Source: Panorpa germanica
Taxonomy: Eukaryota; Arthropoda; Insecta; Mecoptera; Panorpidae
Direction: 5' to 3'
Length of the DNA stretch: 64,000 nucleotides
Assembly (NCBI GenBank): GCA_963678705.1
Contig: OY783207.1
Location: 5,332,001-5,396,000, forward strand
The notes under the pieces were generated by a model, which ran no database searches, had not been told where the DNA came from, and worked only from the letters and a program-made list of their open reading frames with translations. This document shows, one piece after another, positions 1,086-52,924 of the stretch (its first letter is position 1; the number at the start of each line of letters is the position of its first letter). The position numbers and the translations under genes are program-made.

Positions 1086-2318
1086 TTACTTGTTTGGATA
1101 ATAACACGAATCTCCCAACATGATCAACCAAATAGCGTAGATATATTCCTTTCGACCAACTTTAATAGCTTGTAATTCCAATATTTGCTTTAGTTTGAAT
1201 AAAACCTAGAAATATATAAATTTTTAATAACAAATAATAAATAGAAATAAAAAATAATCTTTGTGTATATTGTATTTTAGCGATGTCCAAGCTTACAAAT
1301 AATATAAAGGAAAAAAAGGTTAAATTCTTTCTAATACCTTGGATACATTGTCTCGTATGTGTGCCATATATTTTTAATATTAAACTACATATATGAAAAA
1401 TGATTTTTCTTATTTTGGTTCATTAATTATTTTATGTTTGTGTTTTTTTTATTTTCTACTTCTTTGTCGGAATTATTTTTAAACTAATGCTTATAAAAAG
1501 AAAAATATATTCACGAATTATAATTTTTTTTAAATGAAACAGAAGTATGTAAAAAGAGACATAATTTTATGATTATCATCCTGTACGATCCATAATCTAT
1601 ATACCTTCTTTTTTTAAAAAGCGCTCCATTCAATCGGTTGATGTTTTAGCGGTTGATGTCCTAGTGCTCTCGTTCGATAGGCGGGGCAATAAAGTTTTGT
1701 AGAAACTTACCGAAAAGACATGAAGGTACACCAGGAGACTTAAGTAGTAATGCCACCACTCAACGTGAGCATATTGGCGTCTGACTACAGATACACAAAA
1801 TATCATTCCAAAAAATGCAAATACAGAAAAGCACCACATGTCATAGCCTAGTACATCAAACTGAAAGAAAATAAAGTAATATCAATAAATAATTTAAAAA
1901 ATGAACCACTGTTTTATCACTATTTAATTATTTTATCTACATTGTAAAAGAAAACAAATAATTATATCAAGTTTTGAAAAAGCGTTGGTTAAATAAAGCG
2001 TACATTTTGAAAATTAATAATATTTTAGTATTTATTTTAAGTTTCAAGAAAAACTAAGTACATACTTATTTAGTAAACATCCTTACTCAAAAGAATAATA
2101 GTACTCAAGTAAAAACATTTAATTAAGAATTGAATTTATAAACATAAATGTAAATACAATGTCTATACAGTACCCTGTACTTGAATATTTATTCTTACCA
2201 TTTCAATATATAATATTTTTAATGTGAAGATTCCAATCAAAACATAAAAGTAAATAAGTATTATATAAATATCATATATCACTATAACGCAGGATAGAAC
2301 AACTCCTAAGATTATCTC
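1086..2318 (-). CDS. Common 3' exons of a TMBIM/Lifeguard-like membrane protein
   Basis: Three exons, in transcript order 2199-2318, 1711-1860 and 1086-1205 (stop TAA), lengths 120, 150 and 120 bp. All are phase 0 at both ends, each with a proper AG acceptor and GTAAG donors. The 129 residues are strongly hydrophobic and contain several membrane helices. I place them in the C-terminal half of the TMBIM (Bax inhibitor-1, Lifeguard/GRINA) family by alignment from memory. The join ...YIEM/FDVLG sits where the family has ...QTKYDFT. WCFSVFAFFGMIFCVSVVRR matches the next helix and its basic loop. RKEYIYAIWLIMLGD sits where the family has SPEEYIFAALNLYLD. Family members are multi-helix ER/Golgi or plasma-membrane proteins linked to calcium leak and inhibition of apoptosis. 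The Asp of the family's YDTQ segment is not obvious, so the protein is divergent and its function is uncertain. Confidence 0.72.
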
Positions 2319-4122: not shown

Positions 4123-4854
4123 CCAAATTACTAATAACAATAAGTTTAAAGGAAATGTTTTCTTCAGTTTTGGAAATAAGCAAAGACCAATTATAATTGA
4201 AAGAAGCATCCCTCTAATAAAAATGAAATCTTTTAGTTTATGGTACAATAAGTTATATTTGAGTTTGTGTTGTTAAAATACATTACAATTATCAACGGAG
4301 TACTTACATTGATATGTAACAAATACGATGATCATTCTTTAAAAGTTCTTTCAAAAAGGAACTAAAAATACAGTAAAAATTAAGTTGTAAATTGATAAAA
4401 ATTATTTCATCATCTACATCTGTTAGTTCCACTTTAGCGTTTTCTTGTCAAACGAGTGTTGCATTTTTACGTGCAGTTTTTCGTGCAGTACATCGAACAA
4501 AGTGTCATTTTTCGTTCAAGTTAATTAAAACGAAAGAACTGATATAAAACTGTAAAAACCTGTTCAATACTGTCCCGTGTTGAACTAACAGTGTAACATA
4601 GCATTCTTAATTTAAATCATGAGAAGAAAACGCCAATAATTGTCGTTTGTTAATGAACCAAAATAAGAACATACACTTTTGTAAAAGTTGCCATTATGCA
4701 CGACAGAACCACGTAAAATATAACCATCAACGCAAGAATAACCGCTCCAAATTTTTTCCTCTCAGACGGCTTTTTAAATGCTTCCTCATCACTAAGCATT
4801 GCAGAACTATCACCATTCTTTACTTCAACATCTACAACGCTTTCATTTTTTGAG
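4123..4854 (-). CDS. N-terminal cassette A of the TMBIM-like gene (frameshifted copy)
   Basis: Transcript order: 4675-4854 (180 bp), 4308-4361 (54 bp), 4123-4214 (92 bp). The first exon enters with one carried base after TTTCAG and runs through an acidic tail and SDEEAFKKPSERKKFGAVIL into the first membrane helix. It leaves on GT/gtatgt with two carried bases. The 54-bp exon (FLKELLKNDHRICYIS) continues in phase. The third exon encodes FPKLKKTFPLNLLLLVIW and ends phase 0 before gtaagc, so it fits the common exon at 2318. It is one base longer than its counterpart in cassette B. The extra base appears to lie in the four-T run (plus strand AAAA at 4200-4203), which breaks the A1-A1b-A2 frame. 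Skipping the 54-bp exon, with donor AAA/gtgtat and acceptor AGAG/GG, would restore an open frame. It may be a decaying cassette, an assembly homopolymer error, or a variant that uses exon skipping. Confidence 0.6.
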
Positions 4855-5379
4855 CTGAAATTATTTTTCGTAATGATAACTAATGTGTTTTAAATTATAT
4901 TTATATTAATTTTGTGTACGTACATTATAACAATACGGCTCTGTGCATGCATATTATAAAATATTTAACAATGTTGATTTGTATTTTAACAACCACCACT
5001 AAATTATTGTACCATAAATTATTTGATAATTATTAAATATAAAAAATTAAATACTAAACAATTAAACAAATGAAATATTTCAGCAACCCGTCGGCGCCTC
5101 CTTGACTATTTAGATAATTATACATTCTTGCGCAGGTGATATCGGACATTTGAAAATTGTTGGACCATTGTTTAATGCCAACCAAATAAAATGTCCAAAG
5201 AAAGATAAATTTGTAAAAATATATTACAAATACATTATAAAGCATTGTTAATAAAATAAATAGCGAGTTCTTGCTTCAACGGTATTTTTTCCTATTAAAA
5301 TGCAATGCTTTATCAAGAAATGTTATCTGTGGTCTGAATATTATGCAATTTTACACATATCCTTTGTAGGTTGGTACTA

Positions 5380-5414
5380 TGAGCCCAATATATTCGAGTG
5401 TGTATGGGGCCTTT
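5380..5414 (-). repeat. Inverted repeat partner of 3175-3214
   Basis: Read on the minus strand it begins AAAGGCCCCATACACA and continues through AATATATTGG. It matches 3175-3214 with a few substitutions and a short gap. See that entry. Confidence 0.45.
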
Positions 5415-5537
5415 AATACCGTACTTACTTTTATTTTAGATCGGCTAATACGTTTGTTACCATATAGAACTTTCATGATTTTTCAATTTACAAAAATTAT
5501 TCACGTATTAAATAATATTGCGTTATTATTTGCTTAC

Positions 5538-6703
5538 CCACACAATGAGAAGAAATAAATTTAATGGGAATGCTTGTTTCAGTACTCCAAATATAACCAT
5601 CATAACGCTGCTGAGTATAAAGATTACCCTGAGTAAAAGAAACTTATATTTACTACGTATTCATTTATGTTTAAATTAACTAAATGGTCGAGGAAATCCA
5701 TCGCTAAAAGATGCGAACCGCGCATTTTGTTTCATAGTGTAAAAAGCATAAAACCTGGATTTAAATTTGAATTCACGTTGCCCATATTCGGCTGCTGTCT
5801 TTAAAATGTGGGTGCAATCAGTTTTCTTTAGTTATCTTAAAAACTGTAAGTCCTACACAATTGTTGCCAAGAGCTTTTTTGTAGATATTAATATTATCTA
5901 CAACTTTCAATAATAGCTTTTAGTTGTAACTTTGATAATAAATAAGTTATAAGCAAAATTATATCGTTGACACACAATCTTCATTTTTTCTTACTTATAA
6001 TAGTTACAACAAAAAATTGTTAACAGAAGTTGTAGATAATATTATTAGCTTCAAAAAAGTATACTACAACATTTTTGTTAGAATTATAGTTTTCAAGATA
6101 AATAAAGAAAACTGATTAAAAAAAATCAACTCAAATTTAGATCTAGGTTTGATTAATTCTTGACTTACCAAAAATGCACGCTTCGATAACGGATTAGAGA
6201 GTTGACTAACACAGCCGTTTTTGAAACATGAGCAACATAGTTACATGCTAGTAACCCACACCACAAAAGGGCCGTGCCCACAAAAAATTGTTGAATTTAT
6301 TTAGCAAAAATTCTTTTTTAACATCTAACGAAGATTTTCAGGAACTTAATATCGCAATCCCAATTTGCGCATAGGGCTCTGCCGACTAATAGTACTTTTG
6401 TTAATTATAAATACTTACGTCATCAAGAACATCAAATCCTTATTATTTTCAACAATAGATTTAAATATAGGACTGAAAGTAAAATAATACAATTTTTTAA
6501 ATCTGTTATATACTTGCACAGATATATATGAAATAATTAGTCTTACATACATATATGCAAAACAGGCCATTAAAAGCGTCATGAAAATGTAATTCATAAC
6601 CAGCAAAAAACACACCATACGTGCAAATCTTATTCGTACATCTTTATCGTAAAACACTGCTTCTGTGTTGGTTTCAGCTTCCTCCACTGCCGCTTTTCTT
6701 TTT
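5538..6703 (-). CDS. N-terminal cassette B of the TMBIM-like gene
   Basis: Transcript order: 6551-6703 (153 bp), 6419-6472 (54 bp), 5538-5628 (91 bp). Acceptors are TTGCAG, TTTCAG and ACTCAG; donors are gtatgt, gtaagt and gtaagc. Phases are consistent: one carried base in, two out, then one in, two out, then one in, phase 0 out. The first exon carries FYDKDVRIRFARMVCFLLVM, close to the family pattern F-D-D-K-x-[IV]-R-x-x-F-I-R-K-V that precedes the first helix. The second (PIFKSIVENNKDLMFLM) fits the loop usually written FVxENVWTYYVSY. The third has VLKQAFPLNLFLLIVW, matching RRKxPxNLIxLxxFT. Cassette B plus the common exons gives about 228 residues without the missing first exon, close to the family's core length. 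A MITE (5751-6150) lies in the intron between the second and third exons. Confidence 0.7.
5751..6150. mobile_element. MITE with long inverted arms (family with 48391-48821)
   Basis: The left end AAACCTGGATTTAAATTTGA and the right end (reverse complement AAACCTAGATCTAAATTTGA) are inverted copies. Inside, a second inverted pair runs from GTTTTCTTTAGTTATCTT to its partner ending AAGAAAAC, with GTTGTAGATAATATTATTA-like arms near the centre. The ends and several internal blocks recur at 48391-48821. A non-autonomous DNA transposon is the simplest reading. It sits in the intron of cassette B. Confidence 0.6.
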
Positions 6704-7016
6704 CTGCAATAATTTAATTTAAGATTTAGTATTAAGGTTGTTTTGTCTTAAGAAGTTTTTCACCAACACCTACATGACAATTACATGGACGCTCATGGTA
6801 AAATAATCGAATGATACTAACTTCTTCCCTTTTCATATAGAAATAAAAAAATTATAATCTATGATTTATGAAATTAAATTTATATACGACATTTGTATAA
6901 AATAAAGAAACAATTGAAAGTGAGTAGAGTTAGAAAATATAATAGCTTGCGTTCAGATTGTATGAAATTTGCTTAGAGAATATACATATATATGGAGAGT
7001 GAATGCTGGACGTGAA

Positions 7017-7434
7017 ATGTGTGCGAGAGAGATATGTATATGTTCCTATTTGTTCTCTATGCGCATGCGCCGAAAGTAACAGATGTCAAGTCAGAGCTGT
7101 CTAGATATATTACGTGACAGTTGGTTAATATGACTTCATATTGATGTAGAATAATGTTGATATGTATAAATATAAATATAATATAATCCACTGTGTTGGA
7201 CGTTATTCCTACAGCGAATTCTATGGCGTTCATGATTATATGTTTTCACTGAACGGGCACTGTTTTACCAACAGACGAGCTTTGTATCAACTAAAGAATT
7301 ACAATTTCTTTATATATATTTTATTTATTATACCTTAATAGAATATTAATATTTATTATATCTAGACAGCTGTCACTTTCGACGCATGCGTATAGAGAAC
7401 AAATAGGAACATATACCTTACTTTCTCGCACGCA
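7017..7434. mobile_element. Palindromic element with arms of about 80-95 bp
   Basis: The left arm (7017-7112) contains TATATGTTCCTATTTGTTCT, a GCGCATGCGCCGAAAGT block and GCTGTCTAGATAT. The right arm (7353-7434) is its reverse complement, with a few substitutions and an 8-10 bp gap. About 240 bp of AT-rich spacer lies between. This is the form of a foldback/MITE element. No target duplication was identified, and an LTR-like repeat begins just to the right. Confidence 0.55.
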
Positions 7435-7487
7435 TTTTGGCCACACTTTTAATTTATAGGAAACATATACAAGGTATATGTATGTTA

Positions 7488-7760: not shown

Positions 7761-8925
7761 CGGCTTAGTATTGTTTAAGTACTAACAACATAATGTCATT
7801 ATCGTCATTAAACTCACTGGGTCATGTGAGTTGATTGTCCCAATTGTGACACAGTGTTATCCGATAAAGTGGTCGTACCGTATGAGGGATCGAGGTTTAA
7901 ACTGCTGCGCTATTTCCAAATACGTATAACATACTCGTATACCTACTGTGATTGGATTAGAGTCCTACAGGATGCAGGACATAGTAGTCAGCTAAACGTA
8001 CAACCAATTATCGATTGTAATCCGTAATGAATGTGAAATACGCGTTATTATAGTTGATTATTGGTCTATAATTTAAGCCTTGGTCAAAGACCACTGATTA
8101 ATACAAGATCGGATGAGACAGATGAGCTAATTCTAATAAGACTAGCGAAATACTGAAGCTAATTTGATAATAATGCAATCACCTTTAAGTACAAGCACTG
8201 AAACCTCACCGAACGAGCTGTATGTAGGTGTTGTTGAAGAAAAAAGTATATCACGATATTAAATACATTTAGATGTATTCGCAATTATTTTTGGCTTAGA
8301 AATGTGCATTTAAAATCTAATCCAATGCAACTATGTGAGCTCTATACAAAGTTTGCTACGTTTTGTTAAATTGTATCGAGTAATATTATTATACCTACCC
8401 AGATCTTTATGTAAAGGTAAGCGTCCACAGGTTTGCACGACAAAAATCAAACATACTGTGTCTAAAGGCTTCCATGATGCTTCCACTTCTATGTTTTATA
8501 CGATAAATCAAATACTGCAATAACAATAAACCAAAAATCAATTATACTATCATCTACTATTTATAACGTTCAAAATAAATTATTATAATTTACAAACAAT
8601 GTTACAAATTTATATATAACAAATATTAATCATTTTTTTTGTGTGACTTTTTGTGAAACATTTTATTATATTAGAAATATTTAAAAATGTATTCTTTAAT
8701 TTTTGTTTCAGTAATCATTATCATTATTTCTTTTTATGATATCTTGAAAACGGAGCCTACAAACTTTTACAAATTTTGATATTTTGTAGAAGAGAATTTT
8801 CCAAAATTTTCTGCGTCCCAGAAATTTTCTCCTCAATTTCTCTGGAATATGTTTTGTTCAATCTTGACTTCGGAGTGCAATGGCTGCTATTTAAGAAGAA
8901 GCAGAGTTTCGAATGAAATTAAATG
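7761..8925. other. No gene seen
   Basis: AT-rich sequence without splice-supported open frames or clear repeats on either strand. The short open frames here have no recognisable protein features. Confidence 0.5.
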
Positions 8926-10068: not shown

Positions 10069-11340
10069 CTTTTCATCATTTTTAAGAAGGTTATACTCTT
10101 GTTTCGTTGAAAAAAATCGATTAAATTTATGTTTCTAGAAGTTAAAATTTCTGTGGTTTTTATCATTTTTAAGAAGGTTATACTCTTGTTTCGTTGAAAA
10201 AAATCGATTAAATTTGTGTTTCTAAAAGTTAAAATTTCTGTGGTTTTTATCATTTTTAAGAAGGTTATACTCTTGTTTCGTTGAAAAAAATTGATTAAAT
10301 TTATTTTTCTAAAAGTTAAAAATTCTGTGGTTTTTATCGTTTTTAAGAAGGTTATACTCTTGTTTCGTTGAAAAAAATCGATTAAATTTATGTTTCTAGA
10401 AGTTAAAATTTCTGTGGTTTTTATCATTTTTAAGAAGGTTATACTCTTGTTTCGTTGAAAAAAATTGATTAAATTTATTTTTCTAAAAGTTAAAAATTCT
10501 GTGGTTTTTATCGTTTTTAAGAAGGTTATACTCTTGTTTCGTTGAAAAAAATTGATTAAATTTATGTTTCTAGAAGTTAAAATTTCTGTGGTTTTTATCA
10601 TTTTTAAGAAGGTTATACTCTTGTTTCGTTGAAAAAAATTGATTAAATTTGTGTTTCTAAAAGTTAAAATTTCTGTGGTTTTTATCATTTTTAAGAAGGT
10701 TATACTCTTGTTTCGTTGAAAAAAATTGATTAAATTTATGTTTCTAAAAGTTAAAAACTTTGTGGTTTTTATTATTTTTAAGAAGGTTATACTCTTGTTT
10801 CGTTGAAAAAAATTGATTAAATTTATTTTTCTAAAAGTTAAAAATTCTGTGGTTTTTATCGTTTTTAAGAAGGTTATACTCTTGTTTCGTTGAAAAAAAT
10901 CGATTAAATTTATGTTTCTAGAAGTTAAAATTTCTGTGGTTTTTATCATTTTTAAGAAGGTTATACTCTTGTTTCGTTGAAAAAAATTGATTAAATTTAT
11001 TTTTCTAAAAGTTAAAAATTCTGTGGTTTTTATCGTTTTTAAGAAGGTTATACTCTTGTTTCGTTGAAAAAAATCGATTAAATTTATGTTTCTAGAAGTT
11101 AAAATTTCTGTGGTTTTTATCATTTTTAAGAAGGTTATACTCTTGTTTCGTTGAAAAAAATTGATTAAATTTGTGTTTCTAAAAGTTAAAAATTCTGTGG
11201 TTTTTATCGTTTTTAAGAAGGTTATACTCTTGTTTCGTTGAAAAAAATTGATTAAATTTATGTTTCTAAAAGTTAAAAACTTTGTGGTTTTTATTATTTT
11301 TAAGAAGGTTTTAATCTTGTTTCGTTGAAAAATTGGTTAA
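10069..11340 (+). repeat. 87-bp tandem satellite array, about 15 units
   Basis: GTGGTTTTTATC starts recur every 87 bp exactly (for example 10153, 10240, 10327 and on to 11284). Each unit has TTTTTAAGAAGGTTATACTC, then TTGTTTCGTTGAAAAAAAT, then an AT-rich tail. The tails fall into a few variants that largely alternate, giving a 174-bp dimeric higher-order pattern, with breaks where single units were lost or gained. As 87 is a multiple of 3, one minus-strand frame stays open for 356 codons. That is a by-product of the period, not evidence of a gene. Confidence 0.95.
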
Positions 11341-11360
11341 ATTTATGTTTCCAAAAAAAG

Positions 11361-50409: not shown

Positions 50410-51970
50410 TCATTTCGACGGTGTTTATCATCGGAAACTTAGGCGAAAGTTTCAAAAGCAGAATGCATTACCCTATTTAGATTACAACCAATAAATTTCT
50501 ACGTAGACCACTCTAAAATAATCGAATCGTACGTAGAAGTTAAGCTAGAGTCTCCATTCGGACCTCCATCTCGGAGATATGTATTTCCAATCGTGTAAAT
50601 AGGCCACATCCCATTTAAGAAGTTAAGCTTTAAAATACAACATTTCCAGTGCGTAACCAAATATATTTTCGAAGTGTGACTTAGAACATGCTTCGAAATA
50701 TCTTACACAAAGGCTAATCAGACATATTCGACACGAAAATATATATGTAGGGAAGTGAACTACTTTAAAGTATAATAATTTTTGCCATCGATTATTGTTC
50801 ATCTTTGTTCATCCTTTAATGTAAGTTTTATCGAGTTGCATTTGTCATCGTTGCATAATTGCATCTTTAATTCTTAGATAACGCTATAGAATTCGCTTAT
50901 CTTAACACAGCATAAGATGCACATTGAATATACTAAGGAAGGTACATACCATAAATATAACTAAGCAATATATTATTCTGCTTCATGTAGTAAAAATGTA
51001 ATGTTCATTTTATATTGTTACTAAGTAAAATAACAAATGTAATAATAAAATCTGCTTACACGAAGTAAACTGATTGTTATAGTACTTTAATGTAAACAGT
51101 GCAGTCGTAAGTAGCCAGGAAATGCATTTTGAAAATCATAGAGCTGAAAGCTGAAAGCTGTGCTCAACAGTTTCATTCATATATACAGCAGTGCATTACT
51201 TTATTTTTAATGTAGGAACACATAAAACTTTATATTCAAATAAAAGAAGAAGAATATATTCATCGACTTACCTCTAGCAGCGTACTCGAATATAAATACA
51301 ATGTAACAAAACATCGTCCTCAAACATATGAAGACGACTGAAAAAACATCTCCTGCATTCTTAAATTTTGTGTCCTTTTAAGCTACTTTTTATAATAATT
51401 TAAAAAAATAATGTTCAATTATTCTGAAAATACGTTTTTCACACAACTGAAAACTTTAAACCCTTTACTAATGGCTAGGGTGATAAATCAAGAGATGTTT
51501 TTCTTAAACACACTGATAAAATCTGACAAATAAAACAAATTTAATTTGGTCCTGGCATACATTCATTTCGTGCTCTGCATCTGAACCGTCGTCCACCGTC
51601 CAACGACGTTTGTTATAAATTGCCATAAATAAGATTTTCGAAATAAACGTCTATTTTTATCTCTCATTATCTAAGTACATTTCACTTGAATCGTGTTTCC
51701 GTTGAAATGAACATTATCTTTTTGGATAATCTGAACTTAAGGGTTTTGTTTGTATGTTAGGGCTTTACATTAATATTTTATGCTGTAAAGATGAGATAAT
51801 GACCCTTGAAACAGGGTGGTTCAGGGGTTGGCAAGCTGTTCTTTGTGAAAAGAATAATACATTTGTACCCAGGTAGAACATGTAACGCAATGTGACACTT
51901 TAATTAGTGCGAAACTTGCTCTACGAAACGATTCCTATGTGAGAAGTAGTAACAGAATCTTACTATTAGC
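50410..51970. other. No gene seen
   Basis: AT-rich DNA without supported open frames on either strand. Confidence 0.45.
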
Positions 51971-51986
51971 TTTCACTGCAAGACAA

Positions 51987-52924
51987 GGCAAATAATGTAT
52001 ACGGAGGCAAGCCAAACCACAGGCAAAACATTCTACCTTCTCAACAATAAAATTAAAGATAACATGTGGATCAATAAAAATTTATCTAGAAAATTCATTT
52101 CTACAATAAGCCGAATAAGATCAGGTCATTGTAAAGTCCCATCACACCTAGCGAAAATACAAATAAAACAATATTCTAATTGCATCTGTGGAGAGGAAGG
52201 TACTATAGACCATATGATACTAGGATGTAAACTTAAAAAGCAGGCAGTCCACCACTTATGGAGTAATTTATGCAAGTCTATCATGATGGCAGTGAACGTG
52301 TTAAGTTTGATCTCCGATGTAAATAGTGCCTCTGCAAAATGTGTGATTGAGTTTATATTTGACAATAAAATTGACATATAACATGTATAGAGAATCTTCA
52401 AAGAACTTTTACTTAGATTAAACAAATGGTGATGTAAATATAATCTTAATATATATAAATTACGTGCCACATGTTTGTCCGAGTTTGTCCGCGATGGACT
52501 TCTAAACTACTTAACCGATTTTAATCAAATTTGTACACCGTGTGCAGTTTGATCCAACTGGAAAGATAGGATAGCTTACATCTCAATTTATGATTGCAAT
52601 ATTATCTTATTGCAAATTAATTAATTATCTGTTAGCTCCAAACGATTTTAAAAGATGGCGACATCTGTTGACTAGATTGAGTAAATAGATTGAGCAAATA
52701 TTCAATAGATGGCGCTATGTAATGTAATATAACAAAAACGTTAGTCACAGCAACGCGTGGCCGGGACAGCTAGTAGTTTATATATAGTAGTAAATATAGT
52801 AGTTATATATGTATAGTTTTAAGAAATTTTTATATATTATAGAATGTAATACTTATTTGTATTTTAGAATGGCCAGAAGGCTGAATAAGCCAAAAAGCCC
52901 AATAAATAAAAAAAAAAAAAAACT
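51987..52924 (+). mobile_element. 5'-truncated LINE with target duplication, split by a Helitron
   Basis: The flanking direct repeats TGCAAGACAA (51977-51986) and TGCAAGTCAA (52925-52934) match at 9 of 10. The open frame 51995-52381 is the end of ORF2: ISRIRSGHCKVPSHL, then CICGEEGTIDHMILGC (C-x-x-C...H...C), ending DNKIDI and stop. The 3' UTR is interrupted at 52444-52773 by a Helitron. It resumes and ends GGCCAGAAGGCTGAATAAGC, CAATAAATAAA and a poly(A) run. The family looks like Jockey/I/R1 type. Confidence 0.85.
52444..52773 (+). mobile_element. Non-autonomous Helitron nested in a LINE
   Basis: The 5' end TCTTAATATATATAAATTAC, preceded by A, and the 3' end GCGTGGCCGGGACAGCTAG, followed by T, fit Helitron termini (TC...CTAG, inserted between A and T, no target duplication). 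Inside, GATGGACTTCTAAACTACTT and CCGATTTTAATCAAATTTG are typical of common insect short Helitrons. 330 bp, no Rep/helicase. Confidence 0.8.

Follow-up and report, generated by a model that had tools for sequence, protein, structure and literature searches.

In UGT1A and the clustered protocadherins, the variable part of the gene is one large first exon. These genes, the protocadherins being named in PMC4835542, resemble the locus described here in that a variable 5′ part is combined with constant 3′ exons and with alternative promoters, which are putative here; they differ from it in that three or four small exons vary here and the join lies inside a transmembrane helix. In the chelicerate sDscam genes, as presented in PMC4835542, multi-exon 5′ cassettes are arranged in tandem, each with a promoter before it, and are joined to constant 3′ exons. 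The present locus shares the tandem multi-exon 5′ cassettes and the constant 3′ exons, with promoters that are putative; whereas the immunoglobulin cassettes of an sDscam gene number from 2 to 40 or more, the present gene has two cassettes and encodes a small multi-helix membrane protein. For GRINA (TMBIM3), alternative promoter usage and splice variants have been reported (PMC6719933). The reference variants differ in their UTRs, one variant is without a short stretch, and the available part of that paper mentions no duplication of an N-terminal set of exons. The architecture is of a known kind, and for this gene family the matches listed (titles and abstract openings) in the TMBIM/lifeguard and cassette-gene literature contained no earlier report of such an arrangement.

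The window, a 64,000-nucleotide stretch of the Panorpa germanica genome, contains on its minus strand two three-exon cassettes (A, 6703-5538; B, 4854-4123) followed by three C-terminal exons (2318-1086). The initial annotation had proposed two consecutive sets of three exons ahead of one C-terminal set, and all nine exons were indeed found, each with an open frame and AG/GT borders and the final one closing at a stop. The features are given in the direction of transcription.

6774..6796, minus strand, putative start exon A0: ATG, MSVHVIV, phase 2 out, 70-nt intron to A1; prediction
6551..6703, minus strand, exon A1: 153 nt, 1 base in and 2 out; acidic tail and TM1; donor GTATGT
6419..6472, minus strand, exon A2: 54 nt, 1 base in and 2 out
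5538..5628, minus strand, exon A3: 91 nt, 1 base in and 0 out; TM2 to mid-TM3, ending FPLNLFLLIVW
5430..5435, minus strand, AATAAA between the cassettes: could end a short A-only transcript; sequence match only
4924..4952, minus strand, putative start exon B0: ATG, MHAQSRIVI, phase 2 out, 69-nt intron to B1; prediction
4675..4854, minus strand, exon B1: 180 nt, 1 base in and 2 out; acidic tail and TM1
4308..4361, minus strand, exon B2: 54 nt, 1 base in and 2 out
4123..4213, minus strand, exon B3: 91 nt, 1 base in and 0 out; TM2 to mid-TM3, ending FPLNLLLLVIW
2199..2318, minus strand, shared exon C1: 120 nt, phase 0/0; rest of TM3 and TM4
1711..1860, minus strand, shared exon C2: 150 nt, phase 0/0; TM5 and most of TM6
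1086..1205, minus strand, shared last exon C3: end of TM6, short TM7-like region, stop TAA
1035..1040, minus strand, AATAAA, likely poly(A) signal: about 45 nt past the stop; sequence match only

The phases (1 base in and 2 out, 1 and 2, 1 and 0) were the same in both cassettes, as previously claimed, and both cassettes leave in phase 0 and fit the exon at 2318. The claimed length of exon 2 (54 nt in each cassette) was correct, while exon 3 measured 91 nt in both and not 91 and 92. The donor of A1 must be the GTATGT at 6550, since a GTAAGA 4 bases downstream breaks the frame; the donor of A3 (GTAAGC) and its phase 0 suit C1. Introns were 78 and 790 nt long in cassette A and 313 and 94 nt in cassette B. 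The 78-nt intron between A1 and A2 (6473-6550) is open in frame, and its retention would add 26 residues and no stop. About half of the intron between A2 and A3 is taken up by nested inverted repeats (5748-6153) with arms of 26, 51 and 72 nt, which look like a small hairpin mobile element.

The combinations A-C and B-C are both open in frame, while a serial A+B product meets a stop at once. Joining A3 to any B exon breaks the frame because A3 ends in phase 0 and the B exons expect phase 2. Two hybrids that the initial annotation had not mentioned, A1-B2-B3-C and A1-A2-B3-C, are open as well. Read-through from A3 ends in VSK and is then followed by a stop.

The cassettes had been said to encode corresponding but clearly diverged segments, and sequence comparison bore this out. 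Right-justified and without gaps, A and B were identical at 25 of 99 residues, and over the last 75 residues the ungapped BLOSUM62 score was 121, compared to a shuffle mean of -36.5 (standard deviation, 16.8); none of 100,000 shuffles reached it. Agreement between A and B peaked where hydrophobicity is set. At codon position 2, 53 of 75 codons agreed (29.7 expected from codon shuffles; reached in 0 of 5,000), at position 3 there were 35 agreements of 75 (21.4 expected; 0 of 5,000), and at position 1 there were 29 of 75 (20.9 expected; 115 of 5,000). When exons 2 and 3 were taken by themselves (48 codons), the agreement at position 3 was not significant (18 versus 13.7; 522 of 5,000). Exons 2 and 3 are free of indels between A and B, and a blastn comparison of the DNA of the two regions detected no significant similarity outside the exons (best E value 0.02, not colinear). 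As judged from these comparisons, the cassettes are homologous and their duplication is old. Substitution counts gave a pN of 0.49 and a pS of 0.64 over 99 codons and values of 0.465 and 0.537 over the last 75; these rates point weakly to purifying selection and are near neutral at this resolution. When cassette A was evolved neutrally in simulation to 0.5 substitutions per site, 225 of 4,000 copies stayed free of stops, and the 12 splice-site bases would all have been kept with a probability of about 0.0025. Since intact frames and splice sites are improbable for a neutral copy, both cassettes were probably under constraint long after the duplication.

The predicted gene product is a membrane protein with six clear helices. 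The initial annotation had described the gene as TMBIM-like, a label that was partly supported by a match of the cassette half to a TMBIM4/lifeguard (LFG) profile and by one intron position. No match to Pfam PF01027 (TMBIM/Bax1-I) was obtained, and no Pfam family reached an E value of 10 or less for A+C, B+C or the C half, while the TMBIM4 of the same genome (on C9, L016), used as a positive control, matched at 2.5e-46. Cassettes A and B alone gave weak matches to other families below the cut-offs, the best being DUF2721 (E value 0.014) and DUF2842 (0.11). Searches of NCBIfam and of PDB sequences with B+C as the query returned no TMBIM match. We used a profile of six rows, built from the own-genome TMBIM4 and lifeguard proteins, whose gene models are partial apart from that on C9; the models L017 and L023 are incomplete and were excluded. 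The genome has a cluster of four lifeguard-type genes (L018-L021, C10:15028500-15069000); a further diverged one was seen on C11 (L022).

Against the six-row profile, hhalign scored cassette A at 33.2 (reached by 0 of 100 class-preserving shuffles), cassette B at 26.9 (1 of 100), A+C at 38.1 and B+C at 32.6 (0 of 100 each), while the C half scored 16.5, which 16 of 100 shuffles reached. The hhalign probability of a two-row query was 90.6 for a query with one wrong residue, or 77.4, and dropped to 27.8% when 31 bacterial frames were added. With HMMER and the six-row profile, B, A, B+C and A+C outranked all 400 shuffles; after addition of the 31 bacterial frames, two shuffles outranked B and eight outranked A+C. 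Like the TMBIM4 on C9, the gene has a phase-0 intron inside TM3: PANFILLTAF/T in TMBIM4 and FPLNLLLLVIW/E here (the slash marks the intron) fell in the same column of an alignment whose query carried one wrong residue. This is the only shared intron position; the remaining introns differ, and the four lifeguard models on C10 have no intron at the TM3 position. The PxN and EY motifs are 119 apart in this protein, compared to 114 in the C9 protein. A spliced alignment of the C9 TMBIM4 to the locus at low intron cost yielded a noisy model, which was discarded.

In other respects the protein differs from TMBIM4/GAAP. Its C-terminal half is unmatched, and six segments reach a mean hydropathy of at least 1.4 in A+C and B+C, whereas C9 TMBIM4 has seven; the last hydrophobic region is a short one that runs up to the stop, so that TM7 looks truncated. 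Two aspartates, in the motifs YDT and LYLDI, are invariant in the six-row alignment. By eye, LK replaces YD here, and the other aspartate is one residue off, in MLGD. From work on BsYetJ, these aspartates have a role in calcium/pH gating. With no Pfam TMBIM domain, a match of the cassette half only and a loss of the invariant aspartates from their positions, the role in calcium leak and cell death that framed the initial annotation found no support. We consider it fairly probable that the protein is a remote, fast-evolving relative of TMBIM4.

The initial annotation had advised a check for a shared upstream first exon. A phase-compatible putative start exon was found beside each cassette, which points to separate promoters. 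A0 has an ATG with A at -3, a donor GTAGGT and a phase that fits A1; alternatively, translation of B could begin within B1, at the in-frame ATG at 4799. A phase-2 start exon lies 60 to 80 nt before 33 of 3,011 AGs on the minus strand (A0 and B0 included) and before 27 of 3,168 on the plus strand, giving a chance of about 1% per cassette over this interval and all AGs; both the start exons and the interval were picked after the fact. For a wider interval of 45 to 150 nt, start exons precede about 4% of the pyrimidine-rich AGs (at least 9 pyrimidines in 13 bases), which include neither of the cassette acceptors, the tracts of A1 and B1 being weak (6 and 5 of 13 bases). A0 and B0 are 23 and 29 nt long and align poorly with each other, and at the sensitivity of the search no second copy of either stretch was found in the genome. 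Because the interval was chosen post hoc, the exons are short and poorly aligned and the acceptor tracts are weak, the signal that each cassette has its own start exon is suggestive only. Next to the putative A0 donor lies a 17-base word with one free position (6759-6775); a second occurrence was found 1.5 kb upstream on the opposite strand (8222-8238), with 0.09 matches expected by chance.

We weighed four explanations, and the one we favor, at close to even chances, is that of a single gene whose 5′ half was duplicated in tandem, leaving two cassettes with their own start exons and promoters and a common 3′ half. An ancient duplication of the 5′ half would have produced the two cassettes in front of the single 3′ half, each most likely with its own start exon and promoter. 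In a transcript from A, A3 would be spliced across the whole B cassette to C1; in one from B, B3 would be spliced to C1. The two proteins would have TM4-TM6, the tail and the second half of TM3 in common, whereas each would have its own cytosolic N-tail, TM1, TM2 and first half of TM3. Two homologous cassettes in front of one 3′ half fit the earlier proposals, alternative N-terminal halves and a partial tandem duplication, as far as sequence tests go.

Partial duplications are common, and cassette A could also be the relic of a duplicated gene that has lost its 3′ half or was copied without it. The cassette would then be silent or yield a truncated product ending in VSK, and B-C would be the sole working protein. 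The read-through of A3 into VSK and a stop, the AATAAA at 5435 and a dN/dS that is near neutral at the available resolution are in line with such a relic, which we nevertheless regard as doubtful: at high divergence, A has kept its splice sites and frame, A3 retains phase 0 and the donor GTAAGC for C1, and A scored above B against the TMBIM4/LFG profile in hhalign (33.2 versus 26.9), though HMMER ranked B over A (18.6 versus 15.0 bits). Cassette A may have gone out of use recently.

The two cassettes might instead be internal and mutually exclusive, a shared phase-2 first exon being spliced to either A1 or B1 in a regulated choice between blocks. In favor of such a choice, the incoming phase is the same for both cassettes, which take 2 bases from the exon before them, and serial inclusion breaks the frame. 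Against it, each cassette has its own putative start exon 69 to 70 nt upstream, which favors separate promoters over internal mutually exclusive exons. In addition, four phase-compatible start exons, A0 among them, had a donor score of at least 0 in the 3.8 kb upstream of A1, and block skipping of three exons is generally considered rarer than promoter choice. We judge mutually exclusive cassettes to be unlikely.

The search for further copies covered 84 kb, consisting of the window plus 20 kb downstream, with 10 block shuffles as the control. Each of exons 1, 2 and 3 had two occurrences and each of C1, C2 and C3 a single one, and the scan yielded no third cassette. Among the matches listed, the only other places above the shuffled maxima were C1-like translations of TA repeats (best score 52; C1 scores 195 against itself, and the shuffled maximum was 38). 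Apart from these repeats, nothing that could represent a second C-terminal set rose above noise in the gap between A3 and B1, the intron between B3 and C1, the 13 kb upstream or the 20 kb downstream. In control searches with one cassette as the query, exon 1 of the other cassette ranked 2 or 3 and exon 3 ranked 2 of 167,822; exon 2 (17 amino acids) was too short and ranked 54 of 167,900. The C exons are longer than these, and thus a second C set at a comparable divergence would have been expected to show up. Six-frame searches of the 464-Mb genome, which have low power for exons of 40 residues, recovered this locus and one match at an E value of 6. The earlier claim that no second C-terminal exons lie between the cassettes held, with best gap scores of 24 for C1, 12 for C2 and 0 for C3. 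An open hydrophobic stretch at 5263-5144 was considered as a C1-like exon and rejected: its score of 24 is below the shuffled C1 maxima (mean, 32.5), and visual inspection showed no acceptor with a pyrimidine tract that would open that frame. It is very improbable that this is an ordinary tandem gene pair in which A has diverged C-terminal exons of its own that were missed; the weak score in that stretch speaks for such a pair, and the recovery of exons at the divergence of A and B in the control searches speaks against it.

Elsewhere in the window, a tandem array at 10070-11356 comprises 14.8 copies of an 87-bp unit with a 94% match and is open in one minus-strand frame for 427 codons; it is probably a satellite rather than a gene. 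An inverted repeat at 7015-7437 has 76-nt arms that are 87% complementary and, by eye, a close look-alike near the TMBIM4 gene (about 7450-7080 in L016); it is perhaps a dispersed mobile element. A fragment at 51953-52378 that carries the reverse-transcriptase zinc-binding motif zf-RVT (E value 5.3e-5; 24.2 bits, compared to a cut-off of 27.5) is probably a piece of a retrotransposon. An Rfam search of the window gave no match. The genome has a cluster of OS-D chemosensory proteins (17 matches), a family characteristic of insects and other arthropods, whereas a search for the lepidopteran family PF03260 gave no match, either here or in the control genomes.

Returning to the gene with a duplicated 5′ half, we put forward only tentatively a more specific version, in which promoter choice gives a TMBIM4-like protein two forms that have different first two and a half helices and are joined to the common part inside TM3. 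Should both forms be produced, the locus would encode a small multi-helix membrane protein with interchangeable front halves that are joined inside a helix, whereas the 5′-cassette genes named above vary an outer domain instead. The in-frame hybrids (A1-B2-B3 and A1-A2-B3) would be possible as well, so that exchangeable N-terminal halves could allow one locus to tune a channel-like fold. A partial gene duplication would in that case have been kept as variable 5′ parts instead of decaying.
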